Made by a program: the position numbers and the translations under genes. DNA of 22,530 nucleotides from a virus, in IMG/VR virus record IMGVR_UViG_3300024344_000137, positions 1-22,530 of that record; one strand, written 5' to 3'. Under the pieces are notes generated by a model, which made no database searches, was not told where the DNA came from, and saw only the letters and a list, made by a program, of their open reading frames with translations. Of the stretch, positions 6,034 through 21,501 are shown in pieces. The stretch's first letter is position 1, and the number at the start of each line of letters is the position of its first letter.

Positions 6034-9011
6034 TGGCTAGTATATCTGATTATAAAAAACAACATCCTGAATATCGTAATATTCCCGATCTTCAATTAGC
6101 TGAGATCATGTATGAAAAAGCATATAAAGGAAAAATAAGTGAAACAGAATTTTACAAATTAGCTTTTCCAAACATATCTGATGAAAGAGTAAAAGAAGAC
6201 ATTCCTCAAGAAGGACTTGATTATTTAGAAGGCAGAGGTATTTCACTTCCAAAAGATGATTTTTTTAAACCTACAACATCCGAAATAGCTAAATCAGCAG
6301 GAGTATCTGTAAATGATCCAGCAGATATAAAATCAAGGTTTGGTGGATCGTTAGGATACAATGAAGAACAGAAAAGACTTGCAATAAAAAACTCTTTGTC
6401 AAAAATATACAAACAAGACATAGATGTTAGGACAGGACCTCAAACAGGAGAATTAGAATATTTTAACCCTAAAACTCAATCATATGCTCTAGTAGATAAA
6501 CCAGGGATGGATTTTGGAGACTTTGGAGATATAGGTGGAGATGCTTTAGTTATAGGAGCAGACATAGCGGCTACAATAGCTGGTACAATTTTTACAACAC
6601 CAGTAGGTGGTTTAACAACAGGTGCTATTGCTGCTGGAGCTGCTGAGTATTATAGACTTAAGTGGGGTCAAGAGCACTATGGAGTTAATTTAGATTTAGC
6701 AGATAACGAATTACTTCATGAAGCTTTTAAAACAGCTGGTATATCTGCTGGAGCAGGTTTTCTTGGACTTGGAGGGATTAAATTAATTAAAAGTATAAAC
6801 AACGTAGTAAAAGGTAGAGCTTTTTCATCTGTAGATGAAGGCGTTGAATCTTTAAAAAGTGGTAAAGCTTTAGAAGCAGAAAAAGTTGCAAAAGATATAA
6901 ATATAAAATTAGAAGATGCTGGTATTAAAGCTAGAGTGAAATGGACATTAGCAGAAGCCACTGATGATAAAGATTTACTATCAATACAATCAGCTTTTGA
7001 AGAAAAAAGAGTGTTGGGTAAAGTAGGCGAGTTTAGAGAGTTTGGGGAAGCGCAAGCTGTAGGTTTAAATAAATACTTTGGATTAATGAAAGAAAAATTT
7101 GGAGTTAACGCTGGGTCAACTTACGACACAGGAAAACTTATAAGTGAAGTAACAGAAAATAGAAACAAAGATGCAGTTAAAAATCTTATAAAAAAACAAA
7201 AAGCATCTGATGAATTATTAACTAAAAAAGTATTTAATTTACCAGATGGCAGCTCTAAAGTAACAGGTGTTGAATTTAGATCAATTGTAAAAGATTTAGG
7301 TGATGCATATAAAAGTGACGCAAAACTTGCTGCAAAAGAATTAGATAAAGTATCAGGTCTTAAATTAATAGACACAGATGAAATAGCAAAAGCAGTTACT
7401 AAACTTTCTGCAAAAGAACAAAAAAGTTTAATAGAAGTTGCTAAAATAGAAGGTATTTTTAAACCTGGAATTTATGATGATTTATTATCAAAAAATTCAA
7501 AAATGCTTCTTAGTGACGCTAGAGAAACAATGTCAGTTTTAAGTAAAAGAATTAGAGAAAAACAAATAGGTTTAGCAGCAGGAGAAACTCCTGATGTAGG
7601 TAAATTAATGTTTTTAAAAAGTGCCTTTACAGATCAAATTAAAAAAAATGCAGGAAAAGAATATTTGGATGAATTAGAAAAATTTAACGATTTAGTTATT
7701 ACTAATAAAGAACTTTTAAATAATGATATTATATCTAAATTAACTAAAATAGAAATTGGTAGCATATTAAAAGTTGCTGATGAAGATATATTTGAAACAA
7801 CATTTAAAAAAGGTATAGGTTCAGGAAAAGCGGCTGCAGAAGTTTATGAAGTTATTAGTAGATCTCCAGAAGCATTAAATGCATATAAAAATTCTATTTT
7901 TAATAAATATAGATCAGAGGTGTTAGATCCTATAACAAATAAACCAAGTTTAGTAAAACATAATGCTTTCATAAAAAACTATGAAAGACCATTAAGGACA
8001 TTTTTTAACACAGAAGCTGAGTATAATAAAATATCTAGAATAGGTGGGCTACAAAGAAATATAGAAAAGACAAACAAACTTTTTACACAAACACAAAAAG
8101 AATTAAATAAATCATTTGAAGGAAAACTGTTTAGAACTTCACCTGAAGAAATATTTAAAAAAATATATGGACCAGGTAATATAGGTCAAGTAAGAACATT
8201 AAAAAATATTCTTCAAAAAAACCCAGAAGTTTTTAAAAAATTTCAAAGAGATGTTTTAACAGATTTAAATGAAAAAGTTTTTAAATTAGATAAAAAATTT
8301 ACTTTAGGTAGAGTCTTAGACGCAGATGCTTTTAACAGATATTTAAATGGCGGTGGGGGAGAAGCAGGACATAGAGCAGTTTTAAAAGAAATATTTGGAA
8401 ATGAATATGTTAAAAATTTAGATACTTTAAACCAAGGATTACAAATAGCTAGTAGATCAGCAGCAACTGCACAACAAGGCGTTGTTGCAAGTGCGTTTAC
8501 TGATATAATTAGAGCAAGAGTAGGTCAGTTTACAGTTGCAGGTAGATTACTAACAGCTTTTAGAAGAATTTTTACAGCTGCATCAAATAGAGTAATAGCA
8601 AGAGCCTTATTAAATCCAGACTCATTAAAAGATCTTATTGCATTAAAAACATTACCAAAAAGAAGTAAAGCTGCTGCAGTAATTCTTGCTAAATTAGGTG
8701 GTAGTGTTTTTATGGTACAAGATGATTTACCTACACAGCCTTCTAAAGAAACAGTTATTGAACAAGATATAGAAACAACAGATGATCAAGTAAGTAGTTT
8801 ATTAAACGAGGGCGAAGGTGCAGACGACGGAGGACAAATGGCTGCAATAGATACCCCTCCTTTACAAACACCAGGTATAAATCCAAGTTTATTAAGCCAG
8901 GTGCCTAAACAAGCAACGGGGATTAATGCAACTGGTTTAACACCAACAGAGCAGGCTTTATTATCACCTGAAGAACAATCAATAAGACTTAGATCAAGAG
9001 GAATGGCATAA
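6033..9011 (+). CDS. Large putative internal virion / DNA-ejection protein (992 aa)
   Basis: The N-terminus (about residues 5-45, YKKQHPEYRNIPDLQLAEIM followed by YEKAYKGKISETEFYKLAF) matches a short module I recall at the start of large podovirus internal proteins, where it often precedes transglycosylase or pore regions. A glycine/alanine-rich hydrophobic segment at about 168-205 (ALVIGADIAATIAGTIF, then LTTGAIAAGAAEYY) and another at about 235-252 (GISAGAGFLGLGGIKLI) could insert in a membrane. About 260-860 is a long Lys/Glu/Leu-rich helical region. The C-terminus is Pro/Gln/Glu-rich and probably disordered. I find no convincing catalytic Glu motif of a lytic transglycosylase. Size, helical content and place in the operon resemble T7 gp16 or P22 gp16-type ejection proteins; this is inference. 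Confidence 0.6.
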   Translation: MASISDYKKQHPEYRNIPDLQLAEIMYEKAYKGKISETEFYKLAFPNISDERVKEDIPQEGLDYLEGRGISLPKDDFFKPTTSEIAKSAGVSVNDPADIKSRFGGSLGYNEEQKRLAIKNSLSKIYKQDIDVRTGPQTGELEYFNPKTQSYALVDKPGMDFGDFGDIGGDALVIGADIAATIAGTIFTTPVGGLTTGAIAAGAAEYYRLKWGQEHYGVNLDLADNELLHEAFKTAGISAGAGFLGLGGIKLIKSINNVVKGRAFSSVDEGVESLKSGKALEAEKVAKDINIKLEDAGIKARVKWTLAEATDDKDLLSIQSAFEEKRVLGKVGEFREFGEAQAVGLNKYFGLMKEKFGVNAGSTYDTGKLISEVTENRNKDAVKNLIKKQKASDELLTKKVFNLPDGSSKVTGVEFRSIVKDLGDAYKSDAKLAAKELDKVSGLKLIDTDEIAKAVTKLSAKEQKSLIEVAKIEGIFKPGIYDDLLSKNSKMLLSDARETMSVLSKRIREKQIGLAAGETPDVGKLMFLKSAFTDQIKKNAGKEYLDELEKFNDLVITNKELLNNDIISKLTKIEIGSILKVADEDIFETTFKKGIGSGKAAAEVYEVISRSPEALNAYKNSIFNKYRSEVLDPITNKPSLVKHNAFIKNYERPLRTFFNTEAEYNKISRIGGLQRNIEKTNKLFTQTQKELNKSFEGKLFRTSPEEIFKKIYGPGNIGQVRTLKNILQKNPEVFKKFQRDVLTDLNEKVFKLDKKFTLGRVLDADAFNRYLNGGGGEAGHRAVLKEIFGNEYVKNLDTLNQGLQIASRSAATAQQGVVASAFTDIIRARVGQFTVAGRLLTAFRRIFTAASNRVIARALLNPDSLKDLIALKTLPKRSKAAAVILAKLGGSVFMVQDDLPTQPSKETVIEQDIETTDDQVSSLLNEGEGADDGGQMAAIDTPPLQTPGINPSLLSQVPKQATGINATGLTPTEQALLSPEEQSIRLRSRGMA

Positions 9012-11947
9012 TGTCTAGAGAAAATTTTGAATCGTTTGTAGTAACCGATCCAAATTTAGTTGATCAACAATTAGATGTATCTAAATTAGCAACTACAACG
9101 CCGACAAGAAAAGAATTGTTAGGTGGTATATCAACACTTCCAGGTGTAAAATATGATCCCACACTACAATCCTCTTTTACTGATTTATTAGCATATTTTT
9201 CTGGTGGATTGCCTAGATTACCGCAAACACCAACGGCATCAAATGTAAACGTGCCTTTACCAGGAGGATCAGGTGGAGGCGGTGGTGGAATTACAACTGC
9301 TTCTACTGTTCAGCCTACAACGACTGTAACAGGTGGTGGAGTCAATACTCCTTTTGAACAAAATTTAATTAATCAAGGTGCAGGTGTACAAATAGCGCCA
9401 GGTCAACCTGTTGTAGCTCCAGGTGAAATGCCAGTTACACAAGAAGAAATGGATGCTTTTAATCAAACACCAGCAAGTACAACAACTTTACCATCAGGAG
9501 ATGTGTTTGCAACTGATGATCCAATGTTGCAAGAAAAAATAGATTTTACTCCAGAAACAAAAAACATTTTTCAAAAAGCAGGACAAACAGTTTTAGGAGC
9601 AGCAGAAGATCTTAAGAATGCTGGATATAGTGTAGTGCAACAAGGTAAAGATTTAATTGCTAACATAGGTGGAAAATCAATTGACATAGGTAAAACTATA
9701 ACTAGTGGTGCTTTAAATTTAATTGGTTCTAAAGTTACCGGAATACCTTTATTAGGTACAGCAACGCAAATGTTAGGTGAAGTATTACCAAAACAAGATC
9801 CAAGACAAACAGCATTAAATGAACTGTATGATGTTAAAGATGGTACAATACAAAGCGGTCTTATGACAGGATACAATCCTGTATCAGGAGTAATTAATAA
9901 TCCTTCTGATATGATCTACGGATTACAAAAAGCTTATGATAAAAGAATTAATACAATAGAAGACACTTTGAAAGACAAATACAATATGACAGATGCTGAA
10001 ATAGCAGATGTAAGAGCAGGAAGTTATACAGGTGACGTAGATACTAATTTATTACAAACATTAACTGATCTTGATAAAGCAAAAGCAAAAGAAAAAAGTA
10101 TATTAGATTTATATTCTGGAGATATACAAGACACAGGAGATGCTGGTCTTGCAGAAAAAATAGCATTACAGGATAGATTAGGAATAGGGGGTGATATAGG
10201 GGTTGAGGGTGAAGATGAAGATAGATTTACTACACCAACTACAAAAATTACATCTAATCAAATTGATGAGTTTGACACTGCACCAGTAACAGATACAGCG
10301 GTAATACCTGGATTTAAGCCTGGGGAATCAATATATTCTAGTGCAAGACTTAATAATCCTAATTTAGATCCTTTTGAAAATATTTTAACTAAAGATACAA
10401 CACCAGTAACAGGCGTCACGCAACCAGGAACATTAGATCAAATAGATGCAGCCAATAATATAAATATTACAGGAGGAATACCTACTTACGAAACGTTACC
10501 AGAAGGAGCATCAAAAACAGGAACTCCTGTAGATGCTTTAAACCCTATTAATAGACAACAACATTTTGATAACACAGAAAAATTAAAAGATGCTGTACGA
10601 GAAGGAAAAATTACACCAGAGGAATACAATAGATTAAGTGCTTTTGATGCAAGAAAAACAATGGGACTAGGAGTGGTAACAGGAACACTAGCTTCAGGTG
10701 CTTATCAAGGAATACAATCATTAGCCGGCATGAGTGAAGCTGTAGCTGATCAACCTATTGGCGAAGCAATAGATGACACGGTTAGAAACATTCAAGGTGT
10801 ATCAGGAAACATAACACCAGAAGAACAAATTAAGTATCAAGAAATTGTTAGTGGTCAAGATATATACAGAGATCCAATTATGGGTATGGTTGATCAACCA
10901 ACAAGAGGAACTTTAGCAGGGGAACCGGGTCTTCCTAGTATTATGGGTGAAGCAGATTTATTTGATGATCAAATTTATGGAATGGGGCTTCTTGAACAAC
11001 CAACAACAGAACCCACACCTATGAGACAAAGATTAGATGAACTTAGACGTGAAAGAGATTTAGGTGTTGGACCTCAATTTATGGACATGGCTGAATCTGA
11101 GCCACTAACGAATACACAATTAGCAGAAATGCCTATGCAAGAATTTGAAAATCTTTTAAATAATACAGGAAATGATCTTGGTAAAGCTTTTGATTTAATT
11201 GAGGCTAGACAAGAAGGAAAAGAATATTTAGATGATTTAGAAGAAATAGGAAAAGATGCTGATTATATTGGTTACACAGAACAAGAAAAAGCAGATATTG
11301 CAGCCGGAAAAAAAGTTCCACAACTTGGAGAATTATTAGATTTTGGACTTGATCAAATTACGTCAGAAGAACCTGAACCAGACAGAGGTGGACCACCTTC
11401 AGTTATATCAAAACCAGATCCAAGTCCAGCACCTTCATTTACACCAAGAGGTGGCGGAGCAGATAGAGATCCTGCACCTGCACCTTCATTTACACCAAGA
11501 GGTGGCGGAGCAGATAGAGATCCTGCACCATCAAGAGCACCTGTATCAACTGCTGGACAAGCTGGACCACCAAGTCAACGAGGCGGTGGCGCGGATAGTG
11601 GAGGAGGCGGCGGAGGCGGCGGAGGCGGCGGCGGTAAGATCGTCTGTACCATGATGAACGACTCATATGGCTTTGGATCATTTAGAAATAAAATTTGGTT
11701 AAAACATTCAAAAGATTTAGCACCAGAATATCAAAAAGGATATCACAAGCTATTCTTACCATTAGTTAAGTATGCAAAACAAGGCGGGACAACTAATAGA
11801 GTAGTTAAAAAAGTTCTAGAGCATATCGCAGTTCACAGAACTATAGACATCAGACAGGAAGCGAGAGGCAAGAGACATCTATTAGGCAGAATCTATAGAA
11901 GAATTCTTGAGCCAATTTGTTATTGGGTAGGTAAATATGCCAAGTAA
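9011..11947 (+). CDS. Large low-complexity virion protein with poly-Gly-tethered C-terminal module (978 aa)
   Basis: Residues 1-150 are Pro/Thr/Gly-rich with a GGSGGGGGG patch near 90. About 180-400 is helical and acidic; about 551-572 is hydrophobic (MGLGVVTGTLASGAYQG). A Pro/Arg/Gly-rich tail holds two exact 17-residue repeats (807-823 and 824-840, APSFTPRGGGADRDPAP) and a run of 12 Gly (864-875). It ends in a distinct basic module of about 103 residues beginning KIVCTMMNDSYGFGS, with KGYHKLFLPLVKYAK and RIYRRILEPICYWVGKYAK. I recall similar CT...GYH...P modules at the ends of other alphaproteobacterial phage and prophage proteins. The flexible linker suggests a tethered domain on the virion. 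Its role is unknown; no enzyme motif is visible. It starts with TAATG and overlaps the next gene by 11 bases. Confidence 0.6.
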   Translation: MSRENFESFVVTDPNLVDQQLDVSKLATTTPTRKELLGGISTLPGVKYDPTLQSSFTDLLAYFSGGLPRLPQTPTASNVNVPLPGGSGGGGGGITTASTVQPTTTVTGGGVNTPFEQNLINQGAGVQIAPGQPVVAPGEMPVTQEEMDAFNQTPASTTTLPSGDVFATDDPMLQEKIDFTPETKNIFQKAGQTVLGAAEDLKNAGYSVVQQGKDLIANIGGKSIDIGKTITSGALNLIGSKVTGIPLLGTATQMLGEVLPKQDPRQTALNELYDVKDGTIQSGLMTGYNPVSGVINNPSDMIYGLQKAYDKRINTIEDTLKDKYNMTDAEIADVRAGSYTGDVDTNLLQTLTDLDKAKAKEKSILDLYSGDIQDTGDAGLAEKIALQDRLGIGGDIGVEGEDEDRFTTPTTKITSNQIDEFDTAPVTDTAVIPGFKPGESIYSSARLNNPNLDPFENILTKDTTPVTGVTQPGTLDQIDAANNINITGGIPTYETLPEGASKTGTPVDALNPINRQQHFDNTEKLKDAVREGKITPEEYNRLSAFDARKTMGLGVVTGTLASGAYQGIQSLAGMSEAVADQPIGEAIDDTVRNIQGVSGNITPEEQIKYQEIVSGQDIYRDPIMGMVDQPTRGTLAGEPGLPSIMGEADLFDDQIYGMGLLEQPTTEPTPMRQRLDELRRERDLGVGPQFMDMAESEPLTNTQLAEMPMQEFENLLNNTGNDLGKAFDLIEARQEGKEYLDDLEEIGKDADYIGYTEQEKADIAAGKKVPQLGELLDFGLDQITSEEPEPDRGGPPSVISKPDPSPAPSFTPRGGGADRDPAPAPSFTPRGGGADRDPAPSRAPVSTAGQAGPPSQRGGGADSGGGGGGGGGGGGKIVCTMMNDSYGFGSFRNKIWLKHSKDLAPEYQKGYHKLFLPLVKYAKQGGTTNRVVKKVLEHIAVHRTIDIRQEARGKRHLLGRIYRRILEPICYWVGKYAK
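11429..11529 (+). repeat. Two tandem 51-bp in-frame repeats
   Basis: Bases 11429-11478 and 11480-11529 are identical over 50 bases and repeat with a 51-base period, so each copy adds exactly 17 residues (APSFTPRGGGADRDPAP). A degenerate third unit (APSRAPVSTAGQAGPP...RGGGAD) follows. The perfect identity points to a recent duplication or active homogenisation in the linker of the 978-residue protein. Confidence 0.9.
11600..11635 (+). repeat. GGN triplet run encoding 12 glycines
   Basis: Twelve consecutive Gly codons (GGA, GGC and one GGT) form the most GC-rich stretch of the window, directly before the conserved C-terminal module. Triplet slippage here would change linker length without a frameshift. 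The mix of GGC and GGA is unlike the AT-rich codon choice around it. Confidence 0.9.
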
Positions 11948-12134
11948 ACAAAACGCTTTACAAAAAATAGATTCACACGAAAAGCTTTGCAGGATCATGC
12001 AAAAGCAAACTTACGATAGAATGAACCAACTACAAGCTCATATTACTAGAATAGAAAGAATACTTTTAGTATCTATGGGAGCCGTTATGACTGGCATGGG
12101 CGGCGTAATTGTAGTCTTAATACAAAAATTGTAG
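11937..12134 (+). CDS. Small membrane protein, holin/XhlA-like
   Basis: This 65-residue protein has an N-terminal heptad-like segment (LCRIMQKQTYDRMNQLQAHI, then TRIERI) and a C-terminal hydrophobic helix at about 42-63 (ILLVSMGAVMTGMGGVIVVLI). One short coiled coil plus one C-terminal transmembrane helix is the architecture of XhlA-type proteins, which act with holins in lysis. It is the last gene of the rightward virion operon and overlaps the 978-residue gene by 11 bases. No endolysin is visible in the window, so a lysis role is plausible but not shown; a membrane-anchored virion-assembly protein is an alternative. Confidence 0.6.
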   Translation: MPSKQNALQKIDSHEKLCRIMQKQTYDRMNQLQAHITRIERILLVSMGAVMTGMGGVIVVLIQKL

Positions 12135-12160
12135 CACCCATACGTAAGTCCTATAATTTC

Positions 12161-13594
12161 CTATATCCAAGCTTTAAGTTCTTCACCCATAACTTGACTA
12201 GCTATATTAATTTTTTTACGAAGAGCTTTTACAATTCTTTCATCAACAGTATCTTTACAAATTATGTCAATATAAGTCATAGGATACTTTTGTCCAATAC
12301 GATCTATTCTGGCTTGTGACTGTGTTCTTTTTTCAAGATCATAACCATTGGAATAATATATCATATTACTAGCAGCAGTTAATGTAATACCATAACCACC
12401 CGTTGCTGGCGTTCCTACAAAAAATCTACACTCAGGATCTGTTTGAAATTTATTTATATTACTTTGTCTATCTTCTTTAGGTGTTAAACCATAATAATCT
12501 ACAACAGATTTTTCTCCATACTCTTTAACTATTGCTTTTATTATCTGCGTCATATCTTTTTGCCAATGGCCCCATATAACAACTTTACCTTCAATCTCAT
12601 CTAGCACGTCTACTAGTTCGTCTATACGATTATTAGGTATCTCTTGAGTAGAACCATCATCAGCGGTAAAGTGCCCACATGTTATCTGTTGTAGTCTCAT
12701 AAGTTGAGTCATTACAGTTGTTGTACTAACCATTTTACCATTTAATACTGCAAGCGCTTTTTCTTTCATTTGTAAATATAGTTTAGATTGATCTGGACTT
12801 AGTTGCACTATGCGTTTGATAAATGTTTTTTCAGGTAAATCTAAGCAATCATCTTTTAATACTCTATATGAAAAAGGTTCTAATTTAGAAGATAATTCCG
12901 CTAAATTTCTATAGCCAACAACAATCTGTACAGTTCTACCACTAAAGTTTGCATTACGCATTACGGCGTATCTAGTTCTAAAACCATAATAAGAAGCATG
13001 TCCTAAAAGCCAAGAATCTAAAAATTGACATTGTGTATATAAGTCTAATGGTGATTTAGTTACAGGAGAACCTGTAAGTATTCTTCTATATTTAGATTGT
13101 TTAGATAAAGCTAAAATATTTTTCGTGCGTTTAGCACCGGGGTTTTTAATAGTGGTAGACTCATCAATTGCAATTAATGTATTGTGACAATTTAAAAATT
13201 TACTAGCAAACGCTACGCCTTTTTTAGTAGAAAAAGCCTCTACATTCATAATTAAAATATGTAATTCTTCTCCTGCTTCAAACAAAGTTTCTAATTTTTT
13301 TTCCTGTGTTCTTGTAATCATGGCTTGCCACAAAACCATTTTTTTATCTATGTGATCTACTAAGTGTGTAGGTATCTCAGAATCATGCCAATTTTGGTAT
13401 ACTCCTTTTGGAGCTATAATTAAGGCAGCATTAATCTTACCTTTGTCGTAAAGCATTGATATATTGTCAATTAATACCTTTGATTTACCTGTACCCATTT
13501 CCATAAAATAGGCGTAAACTTGTTTCTCCCATGACTTTTCTAAGGCAGTTAATTGATGCGCGTAAGGTTTAGTCTTAAATTTATAATTTATCAT
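12161..13594 (-). CDS. SNF2-type superfamily 2 DNA helicase/translocase
   Basis: A 477-residue ATPase with the full SNF2 motif set: Walker A MGTGKS (residues 33-38), Ia LIIAPKGVYQNW, Walker B variant AIDES (142-146), III LTGSPVTKSPLDLY, V FFVGTPATGGYGITLT and VI SQARIDRIGQ. SNF2 enzymes move along duplex DNA and remodel protein-DNA complexes; compact phage versions occur in marine and other phages, usually with replication genes. It is the only minus-strand gene, ends 26 bases from the convergent holin-like gene, and shares the symmetric promoter with the replication operon. The predicted leader is about 14 bases with only a weak purine-rich site (AGAAAGAAG). Probable roles are replication initiation or fork remodelling. 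Family assignment is firm; role is inferred. Confidence 0.92.
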   Translation of the reverse strand: MINYKFKTKPYAHQLTALEKSWEKQVYAYFMEMGTGKSKVLIDNISMLYDKGKINAALIIAPKGVYQNWHDSEIPTHLVDHIDKKMVLWQAMITRTQEKKLETLFEAGEELHILIMNVEAFSTKKGVAFASKFLNCHNTLIAIDESTTIKNPGAKRTKNILALSKQSKYRRILTGSPVTKSPLDLYTQCQFLDSWLLGHASYYGFRTRYAVMRNANFSGRTVQIVVGYRNLAELSSKLEPFSYRVLKDDCLDLPEKTFIKRIVQLSPDQSKLYLQMKEKALAVLNGKMVSTTTVMTQLMRLQQITCGHFTADDGSTQEIPNNRIDELVDVLDEIEGKVVIWGHWQKDMTQIIKAIVKEYGEKSVVDYYGLTPKEDRQSNINKFQTDPECRFFVGTPATGGYGITLTAASNMIYYSNGYDLEKRTQSQARIDRIGQKYPMTYIDIICKDTVDERIVKALRKKINIASQVMGEELKAWI

Positions 13595-13609
13595 TTTTCT
13601 TCTTTCTAG

Positions 13610-13638
13610 TTGACAATATAAATGTAAAAGATTATATT
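13610..13638 (+). promoter_or_regulatory. Rightward sigma70-type promoter for replication operon
   Basis: A consensus -35 TTGACA (13610-13615) is followed, after an optimal 17 bases, by TATATT (13633-13638, 5 of 6 to TATAAT). The expected start point is about 13644-13646, at or next to the ATG at 13646, so the transcript would be leaderless or nearly so. No Shine-Dalgarno lies before that ATG, which fits. Confidence 0.82.
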
Positions 13639-13643
13639 GTCAA
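13615..13643 (-). promoter_or_regulatory. Leftward sigma70-type promoter for SNF2 helicase
   Basis: On the minus strand TTGACA (13643-13638) and TATATT (13620-13615) are again 17 bases apart, identical to the rightward promoter because of the dyad. The start point should be near 13608, giving a leader of about 14 bases to the helicase ATG (13594-13592). The two promoters overlap fully, so two polymerases cannot occupy them together. Confidence 0.8.
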
Positions 13644-13645
13644 GC

Positions 13646-14032
13646 ATGAAAGAAAAAACATTAAACAGTGAGCCGATAGTTTATCTGCTACAAGAAGTTC
13701 CTGGTACAAAAATAGGTCGTCCAAAATATAATATTGTTGGTGCACAAAAATTTGGTCAGATAAAAGTTCTTCTTAGAGAAGATACACAAATCGTAAGAAG
13801 TCCGGGTCCCATAACTTATCAACTTAGACGTTTATTAAAAGATTTTTCTGATGAAGATTATTTACTCTTATCTGGAGATCCAAAAGTTATAGGTTTGGCA
13901 ATTGCTGTTGCGTGTGATATTAACAATGGAAAGTATAAAACGTTAACTTGGGACAGGCAGGAAAAAATGTACTACTCAACTGAGTTTAACATACATGAAA
14001 GAGGTGAAATCGATGAGTCAAATAGACTATGA
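13646..14032 (+). CDS. Conserved marine-phage protein, first gene of replication operon (128 aa)
   Basis: I place the start at ATG 13646; the longer frame would need a TTG inside the -10 box. The 128-residue product has YLLQEVPGTKIGRPKYNIVG near the N-terminus, then KVLLREDTQIVRSPGPITYQ, DYLLLSGDPKVIGLAIAVAC and LTWDRQEKMYYSTEF. I recall proteins with this QEVPGTK...LLLTGDP...WD layout as hypothetical neighbours of helicase and primase genes in marine podoviruses. No known catalytic motif is evident. As the first product of the operon, probably made from a leaderless mRNA, it could act early in takeover or replication. It overlaps the next gene by 20 bases. Function unknown. Confidence 0.78.
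   Translation: MKEKTLNSEPIVYLLQEVPGTKIGRPKYNIVGAQKFGQIKVLLREDTQIVRSPGPITYQLRRLLKDFSDEDYLLLSGDPKVIGLAIAVACDINNGKYKTLTWDRQEKMYYSTEFNIHERGEIDESNRL
14000..14006 (+). promoter_or_regulatory. Shine-Dalgarno site deciding the start at 14013
   Basis: AGAGGTG sits 6 bases before ATG 14013. The earlier in-frame ATG at 13995 has no such site and would place the Shine-Dalgarno inside its own coding sequence, so 14013 is preferred. Confidence 0.65.
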
Positions 14033-14564
14033 AAAAGATAGAGTACAATCTGTAACACAGGCAGACGCAGCTAAAAGTTTGTCTAGTAAAGTTATAGAAT
14101 TAAAAAATTTAGAGGACGAAATTGCAAATGCAGAAAAAAGCGTCTCTAAACTTAAAGAGCAAGCTAAAGTATTATCTCAGTTTGAAATACCTGAGATGAT
14201 GGAGAAGATGCATATTACAAAATTAAAGCTTAAAGACGGCGAGGCTGTAGAAATAAAAAAATTCTATAGTGCTGCTATCTTACCTGAACATCAGGAACAA
14301 GCTTTTCAATGGCTTCGAGACAACGACTTAGGTGATATTATTAAAAATGATATTACCGTTACCTTTGGTCGAGGCGAAGACAACAAGGCGAGCGTTTACG
14401 CAGACCTTGCAAAAGGTCAGGGATATGAACCAGTCCAGAAAATAGGGGTTCATGCTCAGACACTTAAAGCAGTAGTCAGGGAGCGTCTTGAAGCTGGACG
14501 TGAGATGCCCTCTGACTTATTTAAAACTTACGCGGGTAACAGTACAAAAATAACAAGGAGATAG
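14013..14564 (+). CDS. Conserved coiled-coil phage replication-module protein (183 aa)
   Basis: From the start supported by the AGAGGTG site, the product has an N-terminal coiled coil (about 20-55, KVIELKNLEDEIANAEKSVS, then KLKEQAKVL). A compact domain follows with MHITKLKLKDGEAVEIKKFY, PEHQEQAFQWLRDNDLGDII and the signature VTFGRGEDNKA, then QTLKAVVRERLEAGREMPSD. I recall this family as widespread in tailed phages, normally paired with the next gene in replication regions and annotated as hypothetical. Coiled coil plus charged domain suggests an oligomeric DNA- or protein-binding factor; no enzymatic motif is seen. It lies 2 bases from the next gene, so the two are co-translated. An alternative start is ATG 13995. 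Confidence 0.78.
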   Translation: MSQIDYEKDRVQSVTQADAAKSLSSKVIELKNLEDEIANAEKSVSKLKEQAKVLSQFEIPEMMEKMHITKLKLKDGEAVEIKKFYSAAILPEHQEQAFQWLRDNDLGDIIKNDITVTFGRGEDNKASVYADLAKGQGYEPVQKIGVHAQTLKAVVRERLEAGREMPSDLFKTYAGNSTKITRR

Positions 14565-14566
14565 AA

Positions 14567-15292
14567 ATGAGTGACGAGAAACAAGTAGCGATAAAGAAAG
14601 AGGCGGGCTTACCTTCATCTATATTATTTGAAGATGATGCTGCGTCAGGTTTTGAGAATGTGAAGACAACTAGTTTGGCTTTACCTATCTTAAAACTTTT
14701 ACAAAATGGCTCTGGGGAAGCACAGAAACGTAACCAAAATTACGTTGACGGTGCAGAACCTGGTATGCTTTTAAATACAGTTACTAAAAAATTGTATGAT
14801 GGAGCAAATGGGGTATCAGTTATTCCATGTCATTATAAGTTAGAGTACCAAGAATGGGCTGACTTTGGAACGGGTTCTGGTAGACCAGAAAACCTTTTTC
14901 CAGATGGATCAGACATTTTAGAATCAACAACTAAAGATGGCGGAGGTAAAGACAGATTAGAAAATGGTAATTATATTCTAACTGTTGGCCAACACTATGT
15001 ATTGGTTGTTGGAGATGATGGAGGAGCTGAACAGGCTTTAATATCTATGAGTTCATCTCAAGGTAAGATAAGCAGGAAATGGAATTCTATGATGATGTCC
15101 ATTTCACTTGATGGTAAAAATGGTTCTTACACACCACCATCATTTAGCCACTCTTATAAACTAACAACTGTTTTAAATTCTGGTAAAGGTAACCAATGGT
15201 ACGGTTACAATGTCGTTAAAGAAGGTCAAGTTAAAGACGCTGCTTTATACGAACGTGCTAAGAAATTTTACACTAGTTTATCCGGTAAATAG
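14567..15292 (+). CDS. Conserved phage protein, candidate ssDNA-binding/replication factor (241 aa)
   Basis: A strong Shine-Dalgarno (AAGGAGAT) precedes the ATG. The product shows LALPILKLLQNGSGEAQKRN, VDGAEPGMLLNTVTKKLYDG, a beta-rich core (VSVIPCHYKLEYQEWADFGT), KISRKWNSMMM and YTPPSFSHSYKLTT. I recognise this LALP-LK-L ... G-MLNTVT ... RKWNSMM pattern as a common tailed-phage family near recombination and replication genes. Some members have been labelled ssDNA-binding-like, but I cannot confirm that from sequence. It lacks an acidic C-terminal tail of SSB or T7 gp2.5 type (it ends YTSLSGK). It follows the coiled-coil protein by 2 bases and is separated from the primase by a hairpin-bearing gap. 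Confidence 0.75.
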   Translation: MSDEKQVAIKKEAGLPSSILFEDDAASGFENVKTTSLALPILKLLQNGSGEAQKRNQNYVDGAEPGMLLNTVTKKLYDGANGVSVIPCHYKLEYQEWADFGTGSGRPENLFPDGSDILESTTKDGGGKDRLENGNYILTVGQHYVLVVGDDGGAEQALISMSSSQGKISRKWNSMMMSISLDGKNGSYTPPSFSHSYKLTTVLNSGKGNQWYGYNVVKEGQVKDAALYERAKKFYTSLSGK

Positions 15293-15300
15293 TGTGAATA

Positions 15301-15332
15301 GTAGGCGGCCTAGGGAGACTGAAGCCGCCTAC
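15301..15332 (+). promoter_or_regulatory. GC-rich 9-bp stem-loop before the primase gene
   Basis: GTAGGCGGC (15301-15309) pairs perfectly with GCCGCCTAC (15324-15332) around a 14-base loop (CTAGGGAGACTGAA). It fills most of the 54 bases between the preceding stop (15292) and the primase ATG (15347). It stands out in AT-rich DNA. No T-run follows, so it is not a typical intrinsic terminator. The loop contains an AGGGAG Shine-Dalgarno-like sequence, and the stem ends 14 bases before the start codon, so attenuation, translational control or mRNA-end protection are the likely roles. Confidence 0.8.
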
Positions 15333-15346
15333 GCTACTGAGTGGAA

Positions 15347-16885
15347 ATGACTGAATTAGATAAATTTATAAATATATTTGAAGGCTTAAACAGTGCCTAC
15401 GGTCAAACCGTAAAGACAGATCAATTCAGTGAAAAAGGTAAACATAAAACTAAATCATTTACAATATCAAATCCTGTAACTAAAAAATTATGGAGAGAAC
15501 ATCTAGAGGGTAAGGACCCTGCATTAGGTATTGTACCAATCAATAAAGAAAACAAATGTAAGTGGGGATGTATTGATATTGATACTTATCCATTTGATCA
15601 TAAAAAATTTATATTAAAATTAAAAGAAAAAAACATACCTATAATTGTTTGTAGATCTAAGTCAGGCGGAGCGCACGCATTTTTATTTACAAAAGAATTT
15701 GTTCCTGCAACAGTAATGAGAGTAAAACTAAAACTTATTGCATCTGCAATGGGGTTTGCAGGTGCAGAAATATTTCCTAAACAAGATTATATAAGAGTAG
15801 ATCGTGGAGATACAGGTAGTTTTTTAAACTTACCTTATCATGCAAATGAAAGAACAGTTAGATATGCATATAATTTAGATGGTAATGTTTTAAAAATAGA
15901 TGAATTTTTTAAACTACATGAAGATATAGCTTTAACAGGAGAGCAATTAAATAATTTAAAAATAGAAAACAAAAAAGAAGAAACAGATCTTTTCAAAGGA
16001 ATGCCTCCTTGTTTAATTACATTGTTAAGTGATGGTGTGCCAGATGGTCAAAGAAACAACTGCATGTATAATGTTGGAGTTTATTTAAAGAAAAGATATC
16101 CAGATAAAGAAGAATGGCAAAGTTATATGTTTACTTACAACAAACAATTTATGACTCCTCCGTTAGATGCAACAGAAATAAATACTTTAATAGGTTCTTT
16201 AGATAGTAAAGAGTATAATTATAAATGTAAGGATGAGCCTATACATAGTTTTTGTGATGCTAAAAAGTGTGCACTACAACAATTTGGCGTAGGTGATAAT
16301 GCTCCTACACCAGAGATTACAGAGATTAGAAAGTATGATTCTGATCCACCAATATACTTTGCATCTATTGATGGCGAAAGTGTTGAAGTGGATGATGCAA
16401 CACTGCACGATCCAGAAAAGTTTTCTTTGGCGTGTATGAATCAAATAGGTAAACCAATGATGCCTGTACCAAAACATATGTGGCGAAGGCTACTTATAAA
16501 ATTATTTGCTAATTTAGAAACTATTCCTGCGCCAGCATCATCTAAACTAGATGTGCAGCTAAAAGAAATACTAGCAGACTATATAAATAAAACTCCAGGT
16601 AAAGAATTAAAAGATGTTATGAGGGGTATTGCTTTTACTGATACCGATGGTTTTACTTATTTTAAATTTAAAGATTTTTGGAAGTATTTATTAAAAACTA
16701 AATCGTGGGCAGAAAGAACTTACCCTAAACAAAAAACAGTAAGATTATTACAATCTTTATTTGAAGCAGAAGAAACATCACCTAAAGTTGGCACAAAAAC
16801 AATTAGATTATTAAAAATGCCTACTATTAAATTAGAAAGACCAAATCCAAGAACAACTAAAATAGAAAAATCACCATGGCTATAG
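15347..16885 (+). CDS. Archaeo-eukaryotic-type (AEP) primase with PriCT-like region
   Basis: This 512-residue protein carries AEP catalytic motifs: IDID with Asp77 and Asp79 (metal binding), SGGAH with Ser106 and His110, then AEIFPKQ and GSFLNLPYH, the pattern of phage and TOTE-type AEP primases. A PriCT-like helical region follows (about 213-285, DGVPDGQRNNCMYNVGVYLK). Next comes a Cys cluster CKDEPIHSFCDAKKC that may bind metal, and a C-terminal domain of about 190 residues (HMWRRLLIKLFANLETIP...) that I do not recognise. AEP enzymes make primers and may also polymerise DNA. I chose ATG 15347 over GTG 15341 because ATG is the commoner start; GAGTGG at 15339-15344 is close to both. It overlaps the helicase gene by 10 bases. 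Confidence 0.87.
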   Translation: MTELDKFINIFEGLNSAYGQTVKTDQFSEKGKHKTKSFTISNPVTKKLWREHLEGKDPALGIVPINKENKCKWGCIDIDTYPFDHKKFILKLKEKNIPIIVCRSKSGGAHAFLFTKEFVPATVMRVKLKLIASAMGFAGAEIFPKQDYIRVDRGDTGSFLNLPYHANERTVRYAYNLDGNVLKIDEFFKLHEDIALTGEQLNNLKIENKKEETDLFKGMPPCLITLLSDGVPDGQRNNCMYNVGVYLKKRYPDKEEWQSYMFTYNKQFMTPPLDATEINTLIGSLDSKEYNYKCKDEPIHSFCDAKKCALQQFGVGDNAPTPEITEIRKYDSDPPIYFASIDGESVEVDDATLHDPEKFSLACMNQIGKPMMPVPKHMWRRLLIKLFANLETIPAPASSKLDVQLKEILADYINKTPGKELKDVMRGIAFTDTDGFTYFKFKDFWKYLLKTKSWAERTYPKQKTVRLLQSLFEAEETSPKVGTKTIRLLKMPTIKLERPNPRTTKIEKSPWL

Positions 16886-18414
16886 TAAAAAAAATAATGG
16901 GACCACCCGGAACAGGCAAAACATACAGACTAGTAAACCACTATTTAAAAAAAGAATTAAATGAGTATAATACTAACCCACAAAAAATAGTATATATTAC
17001 ATTTAGTAAAGCTGCAGCAGAAGAAGCAGAAGAAAGAATTTCAGAACTATTTCCTGACAAAAAATTAAAACATATATCTACCATGCATAAAATGGGTAAA
17101 GACGAATGCGGTATAGATACAAACATTTATTTACTTAAAAATAAAAAATGGAATAGATTTAAACAAGAGTATCCAGAATGGACAAACATATCGTTTGAAA
17201 CAAAACCTGATGCGGTGGGTAATCCAATGTATAAAAACAAGCATTTAGAAATAATACAATATGCAAGATCTAAATTAATTTCTATAGAAAGTGCAACTGT
17301 TGAATTACAGAAACATCATGATGTAGATGTAGATACTACAATACAATTAGAAACAGATTTAAGATTATACAAAGAAGGATCTAAGATGATTGAATTCTAT
17401 GATATGATCAACAAGTTTGTCGAGGAAGAAAGATGTCCTCCACTCGATGTCATCTTCCTCGATGAAGCCCAGGACCTTAGTCCACATCAGTGGAAGTGTT
17501 TTGATTATATAAAATCTAATTGCAAGAGAGCTTACATAGCAGGCGATGATGATCAAACTATTTATGGGTTTCAAGGAGCAGATCCTAATTGCTTTATGTT
17601 GCAAGAAGGAGAAAGAGACGATCAAGAAATATCACGAAGAGTTCCAAGAACTGTGCACAAAGAAGCTGTTAAGATATTAGATAGACTTGGTGTTAGAATA
17701 AAGAAAAAATGGGTACCAAGAGATGCAGAAGGTATGGTTCACTATAATCAAATACTAGAAGAGATTGATTTTTCTAAAGGTGAGTGGATGATATTAGCTA
17801 GAACGAACAAATTATTACTAAATATTTCAGAGCATTTTTATTCTTTAGGTATGAGATTTAGTGGTAAAACAAATAAACATTTACCCAACTCTATATTAGA
17901 AGTCTATCGAATCTGGACAAGATTAAATCAAGGAGCATCTGTTTCTGCCGAAGAAGCTGAAAAACTTTATGCACATTTAGTGGTTAAGAAAGGACATGTA
18001 GCAAGAGGTTATTCTGATGGAAGAACCGTGCAGCGAGAGACGAGTGTAGACTTACAAAAATTAAAAAAAGACCATGGTTTATTAATAGAGGGTGATTGGA
18101 AACAATTACATATTCCAGAAGAAACAAAAGAATATATGCAAACGTTATTAGAAAGAGGAGATACTTTAATGGATAAATCAAATATACAACTACTTACTTT
18201 ACATGGTTCAAAAGGTAAAGAGTGTGAAAACATATGTTTGTTCACAGACTATGGTGTTGAAGGACAAGATGAATTTATTTATCGAGCAGCATATGATGAC
18301 CCAGATCCTGAACATAGATTATTTTATGTAGGCACAACAAGAGCAAAAGAAAATTTACATATAATGCAACCATCATCAGATTATCATTACACAATAGGAG
18401 AACCAATAGTATGA
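16876..18414 (+). CDS. UvrD/Rep-like superfamily 1 DNA helicase
   Basis: This 512-residue SF1 helicase shows Walker A GPPGTGKT (residues 9-16), Ia VYITFSKAAAEEAEERI, Walker B FLDEAQD (DEAQD 196-200), III GDDDQTIYGFQGAD (from 223), V LTLHGSKGKECENICLF and VI RLFYVGTTRAKENLHIM. These are the UvrD/PcrA/Rep signatures, enzymes that unwind DNA 3' to 5'. At 512 residues it is shorter than bacterial UvrD or Rep (about 670-720), so the accessory 1B/2B subdomains are probably reduced. It overlaps the primase by 10 bases and the DUF3310 gene by ATGA. With no DnaB or gp4-type helicase visible, it is the best candidate for fork unwinding; that role is inferred. Confidence 0.93.
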   Translation: MAIVKKIMGPPGTGKTYRLVNHYLKKELNEYNTNPQKIVYITFSKAAAEEAEERISELFPDKKLKHISTMHKMGKDECGIDTNIYLLKNKKWNRFKQEYPEWTNISFETKPDAVGNPMYKNKHLEIIQYARSKLISIESATVELQKHHDVDVDTTIQLETDLRLYKEGSKMIEFYDMINKFVEEERCPPLDVIFLDEAQDLSPHQWKCFDYIKSNCKRAYIAGDDDQTIYGFQGADPNCFMLQEGERDDQEISRRVPRTVHKEAVKILDRLGVRIKKKWVPRDAEGMVHYNQILEEIDFSKGEWMILARTNKLLLNISEHFYSLGMRFSGKTNKHLPNSILEVYRIWTRLNQGASVSAEEAEKLYAHLVVKKGHVARGYSDGRTVQRETSVDLQKLKKDHGLLIEGDWKQLHIPEETKEYMQTLLERGDTLMDKSNIQLLTLHGSKGKECENICLFTDYGVEGQDEFIYRAAYDDPDPEHRLFYVGTTRAKENLHIMQPSSDYHYTIGEPIV

Positions 18415-18665
18415 GCGACATATATAAAAAACAAGTAGGAGGAACTCACTATAGATCTATGGTGATACAGCCATCAGAGTTCATAAACAAAAACAACTTG
18501 CCCTTTGCAGAAGGAAACGCTATAAAATATTTGTGCAGGCACAAGCAGAAAAATCAGAAAGAAGACTTACTAAAAGCTAAACATTACATTGATATGGCAA
18601 TTGATAGAGATTATCCAGAAAAACCGAAAGAAGAAAAAACAAATTCATGGGGAATAACTAAGTGA
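18411..18665 (+). CDS. DUF3310 / T7 gp1.7-like nucleotide kinase-type protein
   Basis: This 84-residue protein matches the DUF3310 pattern: VGGTHYRSMVIQPSEFI, then NLPFAEGNAIKYLCRHKQK and EDLLKAKHYIDMAID. The family includes T7 gp1.7, described as an unusual dTMP/dGMP kinase that lacks a Walker A loop. It is common beside family A polymerases, where it could raise dNTP supply. Activity here is inferred from the family only. It starts in an ATGA overlap with the helicase gene, with AGGAG 10 bases upstream, and its stop overlaps the polymerase ATG (TGATG), so it is coupled to both. Confidence 0.85.
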   Translation: MSDIYKKQVGGTHYRSMVIQPSEFINKNNLPFAEGNAIKYLCRHKQKNQKEDLLKAKHYIDMAIDRDYPEKPKEEKTNSWGITK

Positions 18666-20560
18666 TGTTTGAAGCTCAAACGGAATGGATAAGTCCAGAG
18701 TCTTTTCCGGATCTTAAAGAGCACAAATACATAGCAATAGATTTAGAAACAAGAGATCCAGGTCTAAAGTCTAAGGGATCTGGTGCATTAGTTGGCGAAG
18801 GAGAAATTGTAGGAATAGCTGTAGCTGTAGAGGGATGGTCAGGTTATTATTCTTTTGGACATAAAGAAGGAAACTTTTTTGATGAAGCTGTAGTAATGCG
18901 ATGGATAAAAGAAGTATGTGCATTGCCATGTGTTAAATTATTTCATAACGCAATGTATGATGTATGTTGGTTAAGAGCATACGGAGTGCAAATAAATGGC
19001 CATATTGTTGATACGATGGTTATGGCATCACTTATAGATGAAAATAGATTTTGGTATTCATTAAACAGTTTATCTCTAGATTATCTTAATCAAGTAAAAG
19101 ATGAAACAGCACTAAGAGCTGCAGCAGATAAAGCAGGCATAGATGCTAAAGCTGAAATGTGGAAACTACCTGCAATGTATGTGGGGTCTTATGCAGAAAA
19201 AGATGCAGAGCTAACTTTAAGTTTGTTTAAAAGATTATCTAAAGAAATTAAAGCACAAGATCTTACAAAAGTATTTGATCTTGAAACACAATTGTTTCCG
19301 TGTTTAATTGATATGAAATTTAAGGGAGTACGCGTAGACGTTGAAGCTGCTCATAAATTAAAGAAACAATTAGCATCACAAGAAGAAACGTTACTCCTAG
19401 AAGTAAAAAAAGAAACAGGAATAGAGCCTCAAATATGGGCAGCAAGAAGCATTGCCAAAGTTTTTGATAAATTGAAATTAGACTATGAAATAACCGCAAA
19501 AACAAAAGCTCCCTCCTTTACTAAAAATTTTTTACAAGAACATACAAATCCTGTCGTGCAGAGAATAGCAAAAGCTAGAGAAATAAACAAGGCACATACT
19601 ACATTTATAGACACTATAATTAAGTATCAGTATAAAGGTAGAATACATGCGGATATTAATCCTATTAGAGGCGATAGTGGGGGCACGGTAACTGGTAGAT
19701 TTTCATATTCTAATCCTAACCTTCAGCAAATTCCAGCGAGGAACAAGCAGCTAGGGCCAATGATTAGATCATTATTTATACCAGAACACAATCACAAGTG
19801 GGGATGTTTTGATTACAGTCAGCAAGAACCAAGACTAGTTGTACACTATGCAGCTACAAAATTTAAAGGTGATGAAGAAGTAGTTGAAATTGTAGAAAGG
19901 TTTCAAAACAATACAGTAGACTTCCATCAAACTGTTGCAAACATGGCTAACATATCAAGAACACAAGCTAAAACAATTAACCTTGGATTATTTTATGGTA
20001 TGGGTAAAGCTAAACTACAAGCAGAGTTAGGTTTGTCTACAAAAGAAGAAGCAGTAAAATTATTTAACAAATATCATGATAGTGTGCCTTTTGTAAAAGA
20101 TCTTATGGATGCAATATCAAGAGATGGTGCTGCATTTGGATACATAAAAACATTTGGTGGTAGAAAATGTAGGTTTGATAAATGGGAGATAGCGGAATGG
20201 AACAACGGTAAATTTGTTGCACCAATGAGTAAAGCAGATGCAGAGGCAGCATACTTTAAAAAATATCCTAAAGCTACAAAAGCAAATATAAGAAGAGCTA
20301 TGACTTACAAAGCATTAAATAAATTAATACAAGGTAGTGCAGCCGACATGACAAAACAATCTATGTTAAATTTATATAGAGAAGGTATTGTGCCACACAT
20401 ACAAATACATGATGAATTAGATATTTCTGTTGAATCAGATAATCAAGCTAAAAAAATTATTGAGATTATGGAAAATGCTGTTAAGTTAAAGATCCCTAAT
20501 AAAGTAGATTATGAATCTGGAAATAGTTGGGGAGATATATATAATAAACCAGGAGGTTAG
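18665..20560 (+). CDS. polA: Family A DNA polymerase with 3'-5' exonuclease, Leu762 type
   Basis: This 631-residue replicative polymerase has proofreading motifs Exo I IDLET (Asp26, Glu28), Exo II HNAMYD (Asp99) and Exo III YAEKD (Tyr176, Asp180). Polymerase motif A is FDYSQQEPR (Asp383, Glu388), motif B RTQAKTINLGLFYG (Arg432, Lys436) and motif C HDE (582-584). All catalytic residues are present and there is no 5' nuclease domain. Leu440 occupies the position of E. coli Phe762; marine phages carry Phe, Tyr or Leu there, and Leu has been linked to a temperate or slower replication style. I use ATG 18665, giving a TGATG overlap; GTG 18662 would add one residue. The last bases include the ribosome site of the next gene. 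Confidence 0.96.
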   Translation: MFEAQTEWISPESFPDLKEHKYIAIDLETRDPGLKSKGSGALVGEGEIVGIAVAVEGWSGYYSFGHKEGNFFDEAVVMRWIKEVCALPCVKLFHNAMYDVCWLRAYGVQINGHIVDTMVMASLIDENRFWYSLNSLSLDYLNQVKDETALRAAADKAGIDAKAEMWKLPAMYVGSYAEKDAELTLSLFKRLSKEIKAQDLTKVFDLETQLFPCLIDMKFKGVRVDVEAAHKLKKQLASQEETLLLEVKKETGIEPQIWAARSIAKVFDKLKLDYEITAKTKAPSFTKNFLQEHTNPVVQRIAKAREINKAHTTFIDTIIKYQYKGRIHADINPIRGDSGGTVTGRFSYSNPNLQQIPARNKQLGPMIRSLFIPEHNHKWGCFDYSQQEPRLVVHYAATKFKGDEEVVEIVERFQNNTVDFHQTVANMANISRTQAKTINLGLFYGMGKAKLQAELGLSTKEEAVKLFNKYHDSVPFVKDLMDAISRDGAAFGYIKTFGGRKCRFDKWEIAEWNNGKFVAPMSKADAEAAYFKKYPKATKANIRRAMTYKALNKLIQGSAADMTKQSMLNLYREGIVPHIQIHDELDISVESDNQAKKIIEIMENAVKLKIPNKVDYESGNSWGDIYNKPGG

Positions 20561-20562
20561 TT

Positions 20563-20667
20563 ATGGAAATGATAAACAAAATAGTAGCAAAAGTTAAATC
20601 TGATAGAAAAGTACAAATCGGAGTAGCTGTTGTTGCAATAATTATAATATATAATTTAATTAAATAA
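20563..20667 (+). CDS. 34-residue single-pass membrane peptide
   Basis: A strong AGGAGG (20551-20556), inside the end of the polymerase gene, lies 6 bases before ATG 20563. The peptide has a basic N-terminal half (MEMINKIVAKVKSDRK) and one hydrophobic helix (VQIGVAVVAIIIIYNLI), ending in Lys. An N-in, single-helix topology is expected from the positive residues before the helix. The strong ribosome site and fit between neighbours argue that it is real. I recall similar tiny peptides behind polymerase genes in marine phage contigs. Role unknown: membrane anchoring, a holin-like function or superinfection exclusion are all possible. Confidence 0.75.
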   Translation: MEMINKIVAKVKSDRKVQIGVAVVAIIIIYNLIK

Positions 20668-20676
20668 TTATGACAC

Positions 20677-21327
20677 ATGGCCTATTTAAATGCAAACATA
20701 CCTGTGACTTATGCACAGATCAGAAGAGAATATCTTTACGATCTTAAAAAGCATCACGGCGAAACTGAAGATTGCATTGTATTTGGCCTTACATCAATTA
20801 CAGGGCGCCCTATACTCTTTCATGCGATTATGGAAAATGGTGCAATCTTTTATAGATTGCCTATCTCTGCGTTTATACAAAGAGGTTTTGATCCAAAAGA
20901 AGTACCTGGGCGTCGACTTGATGAATTGCAGCTATGGAATTGTTTTAGTTATTATCCTGCTGTTACTTCTTACGATATCTTAGATGGACAATCAGGAAAA
21001 TATATTGGTAAAGATAAAAAATGGCATTATGGTGCATACCTTTTCACAGTTGACTTTGCACATCCAGAGAGTAATATAGTAGATACAGATCATTCTGAAA
21101 TACCGCACGAACATAAGTGCGCACATATACTTGCCTTAGATGACGGCAACTATGCGGCACAGCCAAACAATAGATTAATTTGGGACATCCCATCATTTAC
21201 AGTTAAGGACGAAATTCCTGACTGGAAAGTACAGACAAGTGAATGGAATGTTGAAGATACTCGTAAATGGAGAACAGAAGACACTGATAAATTTTTTTAC
21301 GAAATTGAGGAGAAAAAAAATGACTAA
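20677..21327 (+). CDS. Conserved marine-phage protein of unknown function (216 aa)
   Basis: This 216-residue protein starts MAYLNANIPVTYAQIRREYL, then YDLKKHHGETEDCIVFGLTS, GRPILFHAIMENGAIFYRLP and, later, LWNCFSYYPAVTSYDILDGQ and YGAYLFTVDFAH. It is rich in Tyr, Trp and His, with an acidic Trp-containing tail (WNVEDTRKWRTEDTDKFFYE). I recall the family as a frequent hypothetical in marine podoviruses; it looks like a soluble cytoplasmic protein and I cannot assign a fold. No Shine-Dalgarno precedes the ATG. A TATAAT (20650-20655) lies at a distance that would give a short leader, but the matching -35 is poor. It overlaps the next gene by 8 bases. Confidence 0.78.
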   Translation: MAYLNANIPVTYAQIRREYLYDLKKHHGETEDCIVFGLTSITGRPILFHAIMENGAIFYRLPISAFIQRGFDPKEVPGRRLDELQLWNCFSYYPAVTSYDILDGQSGKYIGKDKKWHYGAYLFTVDFAHPESNIVDTDHSEIPHEHKCAHILALDDGNYAAQPNNRLIWDIPSFTVKDEIPDWKVQTSEWNVEDTRKWRTEDTDKFFYEIEEKKND

Positions 21328-21487
21328 ATGTAAAAATTGCCAACACGATTGTCATTGTGATGGGGATCTTCATGCAGATGAATATGGTACTTGTGCTTGC
21401 GATAATTGTGCATGTAAAAGAACATATAAGAAAAAGCAAGATCATGGGACTGATATGTCATACGAAAACGAGGTCAAACAAAAATAA
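21320..21487 (+). CDS. Metallothionein-like cysteine-rich miniprotein (55 aa)
   Basis: GAGGAG stands just before ATG 21320; the longer upstream frame is a shadow of the preceding gene. The product has eight Cys within residues 4-32, arranged C-x2-C-x3-C-x-C (4, 7, 11, 13) and C-x-C-x2-C-x-C (25, 27, 30, 32), with His at 9, 12 and 18. Dense CxC/CxxC pairs plus His and few hydrophobic residues are typical of metallothioneins or small zinc-cluster proteins. The two Cys quartets could each hold a metal or form one shared cluster. The tail (RTYKKKQDHGTDMSYENE) is charged. It overlaps the previous gene by 8 bases. Metal storage, zinc supply to phage enzymes or redox protection are candidate roles; an alternative is a zinc-finger adaptor. 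Confidence 0.72.
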   Translation: MTKCKNCQHDCHCDGDLHADEYGTCACDNCACKRTYKKKQDHGTDMSYENEVKQK

Positions 21488-21488
21488 T

Positions 21489-21493
21489 GGAGG
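21489..21493 (+). promoter_or_regulatory. Shine-Dalgarno site deciding the start at 21502
   Basis: GGAGG lies 8 bases before ATG 21502. The in-frame ATG at 21487 has only a GAGG 13 bases upstream and would add five residues (MEVSR) ahead of the signal peptide. The 21502 start gives a cleaner secretion signal. Confidence 0.65.
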
Positions 21494-21501
21494 TTAGCAG
21501 G

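Follow-up and report, generated by a model that had tools for sequence, protein, structure and literature searches.

A palindrome between the SNF2 helicase gene and the replication operon of a pelagiphage relative very probably holds two overlaid, opposing sigma70-type promoters

Results

Two probable promoters in one palindrome

The window, by which we mean the whole 22,530-nucleotide stretch of viral DNA analyzed, contains a palindrome that very probably consists of two near-consensus promoters for host sigma70 RNA polymerase, overlaid in opposite directions within a single 34-bp footprint (Table 1). The palindrome reads TTGACAATATAA-ATGTAAAAGA-TTATATTGTCAA (13610-13643; in pattern form, TTGACAATATAA-N10-TTATATTGTCAA), and each arm is a fusion of the -35 of one promoter with the -10 of the other (TTGACAATATA). 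The initial annotation had described the 12-base arms as exact reverse complements that supply a -35 and a -10 each, with 17-base spacing both ways, and direct reading and promoter scans confirm this. The dyad extends outwards as far as the -35 hexamers and inwards one base beyond the -10 hexamers, which are 12 bp apart; the predicted starts are about 37 to 39 bp apart.

A scan of the whole window, like one of positions 5000-22530, found only two sigma70-type matches of at least 11/12 (TTGACA-17-TATATT), namely, these two, one per strand and each 11/12, TATATT departing from the exact -10 consensus. Each scored 14.52 of 16.45, near the maximum, on a simple sigma70 matrix whose -10 and -35 weights are E. 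coli values from general knowledge, the window's own host and sigma specificity being taken from its relatives. The palindrome is also the sole perfect inverted repeat in the window with arms of at least 10 and a loop of at most 20. Dinucleotide shuffles gave 0.075 repeats with arms of at least 12 per window (3 in 40 shuffles), and the palindrome pattern, with up to three mismatches allowed, had no chance match across 100 shuffles. Single promoters of at least 11/12 were common in shuffled windows (1.48 each); a pair on opposite strands within 60 bp arose in 1 of 150.

Table 1. Coordinates of the features in and around the palindrome
Feature	Position	Strand	Basis
Perfect inverted repeat, 12-bp arms and 10-nt loop (whole symmetric double promoter)	13610..13643		Direct reading; pattern and repeat scans
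-35 TTGACA, rightward promoter	13610..13615	+	Promoter scans; alignment of relatives
-10 TATATT, rightward promoter, spacer 17 bp	13633..13638	+	Promoter scans; TATA-to-own--35 distance kept in classes A and B
-35 TTGACA, leftward promoter; base 13638 common to rightward -10	13638..13643	-	Promoter scans
-10 TATATT, leftward promoter, spacer 17 bp; base 13615 common to rightward -35	13615..13620	-	Promoter scans
Loop, sequence differs among relatives	13622..13631		Alignments of relatives
Predicted rightward transcript start (A13646 preferred), equal to the start codon	13645..13646	+	Inference from -10 position
Predicted leftward transcript start (A at 13607), 5'-AGAAAGAAGAAAAAUG	13607..13608	-	Inference from -10 position
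AGAAAG (CTTTCT on + strand), start of leftward mRNA, Shine-Dalgarno-like	13602..13607	-	Near-invariant in 60 distinct symmetric elements
GAAAG just past rightward start, 1 bp out of dyad register with AGAAAG	13648..13652	+	Flank alignment
SNF2-family helicase gene, first leftward gene	12161..13594	-	ORF list, Pfam/PHROG
First gene of rightward operon: phrog_5888/Pfam Pam3_gp32-like, predicted protein	13646..14032	+	Pfam/PHROG, AlphaFold2 model
DUF7307 (Pam3 gp33-like) gene	13995..14564	+	ORF list, Pfam
Pam3 Gp34-like gene	14567..15292	+	ORF list, Pfam
Primase (AEP-TOTE and PriCT_1)	15341..16885	+	Pfam/PHROG
UvrD-like helicase	16876..18414	+	Pfam/PHROG
Family A DNA polymerase	18662..20560	+	Pfam/PHROG

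Gene setting and phage kinship

With its SNF2/DEAD helicase and adjoining replication genes, the contig can be assigned, on sequence, to the relatives of the HTVC023P-type pelagiphages. The SNF2 protein is 67% identical over its full length to gp87 of Pelagibacter phage HTVC027P, and the gene order resembles gp01-gp10 of that phage, in which the SNF2 gene (minus strand, at the genome end) stands beside the same replication genes. HTVC027P has no RNA polymerase of its own and is stated to depend on that of its host (PMC12753301); start sites are not given in the main text of the RNA-seq study of that phage. It is because of this kinship with HTVC027P-type phages that we infer the host of the window and its use of sigma70.

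No regulator, and no TetR, was found among the neighboring proteins tested in Pfam/PHROG. The AlphaFold2 model of the first operon protein (pLDDT 84) is an alpha/beta fold with no clear helix-turn-helix (HTH). Its best PDB matches were weak (TM 0.4-0.58) and of CARF/SAVED type: the ring nuclease Sso2081 (E 0.0019), Csa3, Cap5, Cap4, and a viral SAVED ring nuclease. A PDB sequence search with the phrog_5888 profile returned only weak matches (E 0.07-0.12), which we took as chance. The resemblance could be a generic Rossmann-like one, or the Pam3_gp32-like protein could be a cyclic-nucleotide-related counter-defence protein.

Predicted starts, leaders, and flanks

The likelier initiating nucleotides are the purines A13607 on the minus strand and A13646 on the plus strand, predicted at 8 nt from each -10 and 1 nt away from the positions first proposed (13608 and 13645). 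Because the rightward gene begins with an ATG 8 nt downstream of the -10, as in 61 of 63 distinct span-34 elements, the rightward mRNA is predicted to be leaderless, or nearly so, and probably is. Reading of the sequence from 13646 up to the conserved region of the plus-strand gene found no other in-frame ATG, GTG, or TTG. A literature search for leaderless mRNA in SAR11 returned nothing relevant.

Beyond the palindrome, the flanks CTTTCTAG (left) and GCATGAAAG (right) are near-invariant in 60 distinct elements in which the loop is variable. Such conservation exceeds the needs of a core promoter, and we counted it against a pure-promoter reading. Since AGAAAGGAG or GGAGAAAG stands a short way upstream of the ATG in distant relatives, we read AGAAAG as the 5' part of a putative extended Shine-Dalgarno sequence; the 3' terminus of alphaproteobacterial 16S rRNA is CCUCCUUUCU. 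A single extended dyad that takes in AGAAAG was rejected, the same motif being found at one-way SNF2 promoters (L074 group) and beside GGAG before the ATG in distant relatives. On the right, GAAAG keeps its place close to the start although the reading frame it falls in differs, and in one relative (L046) it is part of a noncoding leader, which suggests a nucleic-acid signal.

Some relatives carry inserts at the leftward leader. In L042 (around 3835-4001) and L030, SNF2 is set apart from the double promoter by an insert of about 165 nt that lies between copies of AGAAAG and makes for a long leader; it has no Rfam match, and a structured leader in L042 was rejected because the RNA fold is not unusual (z = -0.48). 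In L029 (around 140-220), an insert of about 75 nt between AGAAAG copies contains a stable hairpin (GAGCGGTGA...) and differs from that of L042 at the same insertion point.

Distribution among viral relatives

The exact 12-bp-arm pattern was found in 19 viral contigs, with spans of 33 or 34 only in a search that allowed loops of 4 to 16, and the form TTGACAWTATA-N11-13-TATAWTGTCAA was found in at least 119. Of the 72 newly fetched elements among the matches listed, 71 had span 34 (17/17 spacers), and most listed matches lay between open reading frames of about 1430 nt (leftward) and about 370 to 410 nt (rightward). Nearly all viral contigs examined had the double promoter in the same gene context. 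The site assigned by the initial annotation, between SNF2 and the replication operon, is conserved in relatives together with the geometry of overlapping divergent promoters; the full symmetry that it had called unusual is common in this phage group and occurs in bacterial genomes as well.

The symmetric form sits on several deep, well-supported branches of an SNF2 tree with 126 rows, and asymmetric and 36- to 38-bp forms appear in several places; this is a single tree made by a quick method, and its symmetric rows are enriched through the pattern search.

Promoter spacing is conserved, arm pairing is not

Pattern-fetched loci are preselected for intact arms and are unusable for judging arm conservation, and the co-variation set was therefore drawn from homology-fetched relatives: 44 distinct TTGAC...GTCAA elements, 24 of span 33/34 and 20 of span 36-38. 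Both TTGAC ends were required at extraction, and the informative positions are those between. At arm positions 6, 8, and 11, for example, the complementary fractions were 0.67, 0.33, and 0.79, against 0.67, 0.31, and 0.79 expected from independent columns. The arms, which the initial annotation had proposed to check for co-variation that keeps symmetry, thus do not co-vary; at variable positions they pair about as often as independent columns would.

What is constant among the same 44 elements is the spacing of each promoter, TATA lying 17 bp from its own -35 at a total span of 34 or 38 alike. In the 38-bp group the opposing -35 is shifted 4 bp outwards, and the distance between half-sites ranges from 33 to 38 bp among relatives. 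A dimeric-regulator operator needs a fixed half-site distance and symmetric base changes, and the sequences point to neither. The initial suggestion of a dyad suited to a dimeric regulator fares poorly on these grounds, given also that the symmetry ends at the sigma70 elements and that the outer repeats are off register. Because each promoter keeps its own spacing and the dyad ends with the sigma70 elements, we favor two independent overlapping sigma70 promoters over a dimer operator.

Most homology-fetched relatives carry both TTGAC boxes, and the expectation that related genomes would keep both promoters held for these; it did not hold for minority lineages in which the leftward -10 is degraded or the promoters are separated. 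The L039 sub-lineage retains the rightward TATATT and has TATCTT as its leftward -10, and the class B -10s (TATATG/TATATA) score lower. In the L074 group a gene is inserted between SNF2 and the operon, and there a separate one-way promoter, TTGACA-17-TATTTT, precedes SNF2, its predicted start falling at AGAAAG. The inserted gene (L074:3145-3942; also in L068, L080, L084, L087, and L091) is about 800 nt long, stands between SNF2 and the phrog_5888 gene, and has no Pfam match. Distant relatives (L164-L168 and L171-L174) have overlapping divergent promoters in another register, with the -35s inside and the -10s outside, as in L164 (TTGCTA-17-TATAAT and TTGATT-17-TATATT).

The same pattern in bacterial genomes

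A search of bacterial and archaeal genomes from 84,980 species gave 37 pattern matches, of which 29 had span 34, 3 had span 33, and 5 had span 35 (for the span-34 excess, P = 2.5e-8 against equal thirds, the matches not all being independent). Clostridial divergent pairs with TAGAAC/GTTCTA-like boxes make up many of these, and those tested encode TetR-family and DsbA-like proteins. The sequences suggest that the mirror-image sigma70 design recurs in bacteria, there with an operator added. The loci L186-L220, mainly from Clostridia, have mirror-image TTGACATTATA...TATAATGTCAA double promoters between divergent genes, some of these TetR/DsbA-like, with TetR-type operator-like boxes.

Discussion

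Relation to known divergent promoters

Overlapping divergent promoters of phages and plasmids lie on opposite strands with overlapping footprints and are usually unequal rather than mirror images. By its sequence the phage element is best classed with these overlapping divergent sigma70 promoters, in an unusually symmetric form: both hexamers are present on both strands at a spacing of 17 bp, within the 16 to 18 bp of the class, with overlapping footprints, and are conserved in relatives, and, in contrast to the class in general, the pair is identical over all core elements.

The bidirectional promoters of Warman, Grainger, and colleagues, described in E. coli and Salmonella, share a near-symmetric -10 and have starts 7 to 25 bp apart, commonly 18 (PMC10268837, PMC12825309). 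The likeness to the phage element is that symmetry allows two opposed, mutually exclusive orientations of sigma70 polymerase, which in the phage are predicted; those promoters, too, often lie between divergent genes. In the phage, however, each -10 belongs to one promoter and is joined to the -35 of the other, and both promoters are near consensus. Because the -10s are separate and the predicted starts so far apart, the element falls outside the Warman and Grainger definition while resting on the same principle. The SNF2/gp01 junction of HTVC027P (MN698241; L102 5487-5596) has the same divergent genes and CTTTCT...GAAAG flanks but no TTGAC pair; it has instead GGTATATAATAC, which resembles a shared symmetric -10.

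Divergent TetR-regulated pairs of the tetR/tetA type, such as the clostridial TetR/DsbA-like loci L190 and L203, share the TTGACAWTATA-N12-TATAWTGTCAA form and its 17/17 spacing. They differ in having TATAAT where the phage has TATATT, operator-like repeats in and around the promoter, and an adjacent TetR gene. Neither TAGAAC/GTTCTA boxes nor a TetR gene was found in the phage sequence or among the tested neighbors, and the element does not qualify as a TetR-type locus.

Proposed mechanism and competing readings

The mechanism that we infer involves promoter activity in both directions, use of the host sigma factor, initiation at the predicted start sites, steric exclusion, and leaderless translation. 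Host sigma70 RNA polymerase would bind the element in one of two orientations. Leftward firing would yield the SNF2 helicase mRNA, with a leader of about 13 nt starting AGAAAG, and rightward firing the replication operon mRNA, leaderless or nearly so, starting AUGAAAG. Since the promoter elements overlap, mutual occlusion of polymerases at the shared footprint would follow from the geometry, and both products are probably made during infection through alternate firing at the single site. The palindrome itself would have come about because both promoters were selected towards the same consensus in a very short intergenic region, with no dimer reading the dyad. The near-maximal matrix score in both directions makes it plausible that polymerases compete at the two predicted promoters, and such competition might alter output. 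A tentative proposal, which we consider unlikely, is that selection maintains the element as a polymerase "orientation splitter" in an abundant group of ocean phages: competition at the one site would set how many helicase transcripts each phage genome makes relative to those of the replication operon, whose first gene would be leaderless.

The initial annotation went further in calling the site a switch or coin-flip design, and this is unproven. A true orientation switch, with strong, equal promoters competing so that the SNF2/replication ratio is regulated or stochastic per phage genome, is in our judgment unlikely. The equal, near-consensus scores, at which occlusion should matter more, speak for it, as do the spread of the symmetric form over deep branches of the SNF2 tree and the competition seen in E. 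coli once one side is activated; against it, polymerases at basal activity competed little at five E. coli bidirectional promoters, which differ from the phage pair and are generally weaker (PMC12825309). Lineages with a weakened leftward -10 or with separated promoters also count against a switch. Moreover, nothing in the sequence supplies the feedback that a bistable switch needs, and with no regulator or feedback element found the word "switch" is unsupported.

It is quite improbable that the dyad is an operator through which a dimeric regulator, from phage or host, controls the two promoters jointly, whether by repression or by activation. Its length and perfection, the strongly conserved flanks, and the TetR-family genes and TAGAAC/GTTCTA boxes at bacterial loci with the same double promoter would fit such a role. 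Yet we rejected it as the main reading on the drift in half-site distance, the independent changes in the arms, and the register of the outer repeats, with the symmetry coinciding with the sigma70 elements and going no further; the extra operator boxes of Clostridia are absent, the Pfam-tested neighbors include no regulator, and the model of the first gene's product lacks a clear HTH. That a single direction is used and the resemblance of the other arm is incidental seems less probable still: TATA-like strings are common in AT-rich DNA and the L039 sub-lineage has let its leftward -10 decay, but an equally good opposite-strand pair is as rare in shuffles as reported above, most homology-fetched relatives keep both TTGAC boxes, and SNF2 gains a dedicated promoter when the genes are separated. 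Least credible of all is a DNA or RNA structure, such as a replication origin hairpin, a cruciform, or a terminator. A perfect stem is possible, but it would be an AT-rich stem between divergent genes with no terminator-like match there and no Rfam match, and compensatory changes preserve pairing no more than independence would; Rfam and tRNA searches found no RNA element or tRNA.

Implications

Overlapping and bidirectional promoters were already known, and the phage element is a variant of them with full mirror symmetry, a form also present at clostridial TetR loci. Two overlaid sigma70 promoters of this kind, near consensus and fully symmetric, would offer a naturally occurring system in which to test how polymerases compete at one site; the tests that we found in the literature used shared--10 E. 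coli promoters of low basal activity. The natural variants, with spans of 33, 34, and 38 bp, one-sided -10 decay, or promoters split by an inserted gene, offer a ready-made set for comparison. For the phages themselves, the arrangement predicts that the first replication gene of abundant SAR11-type phages would undergo leaderless translation.
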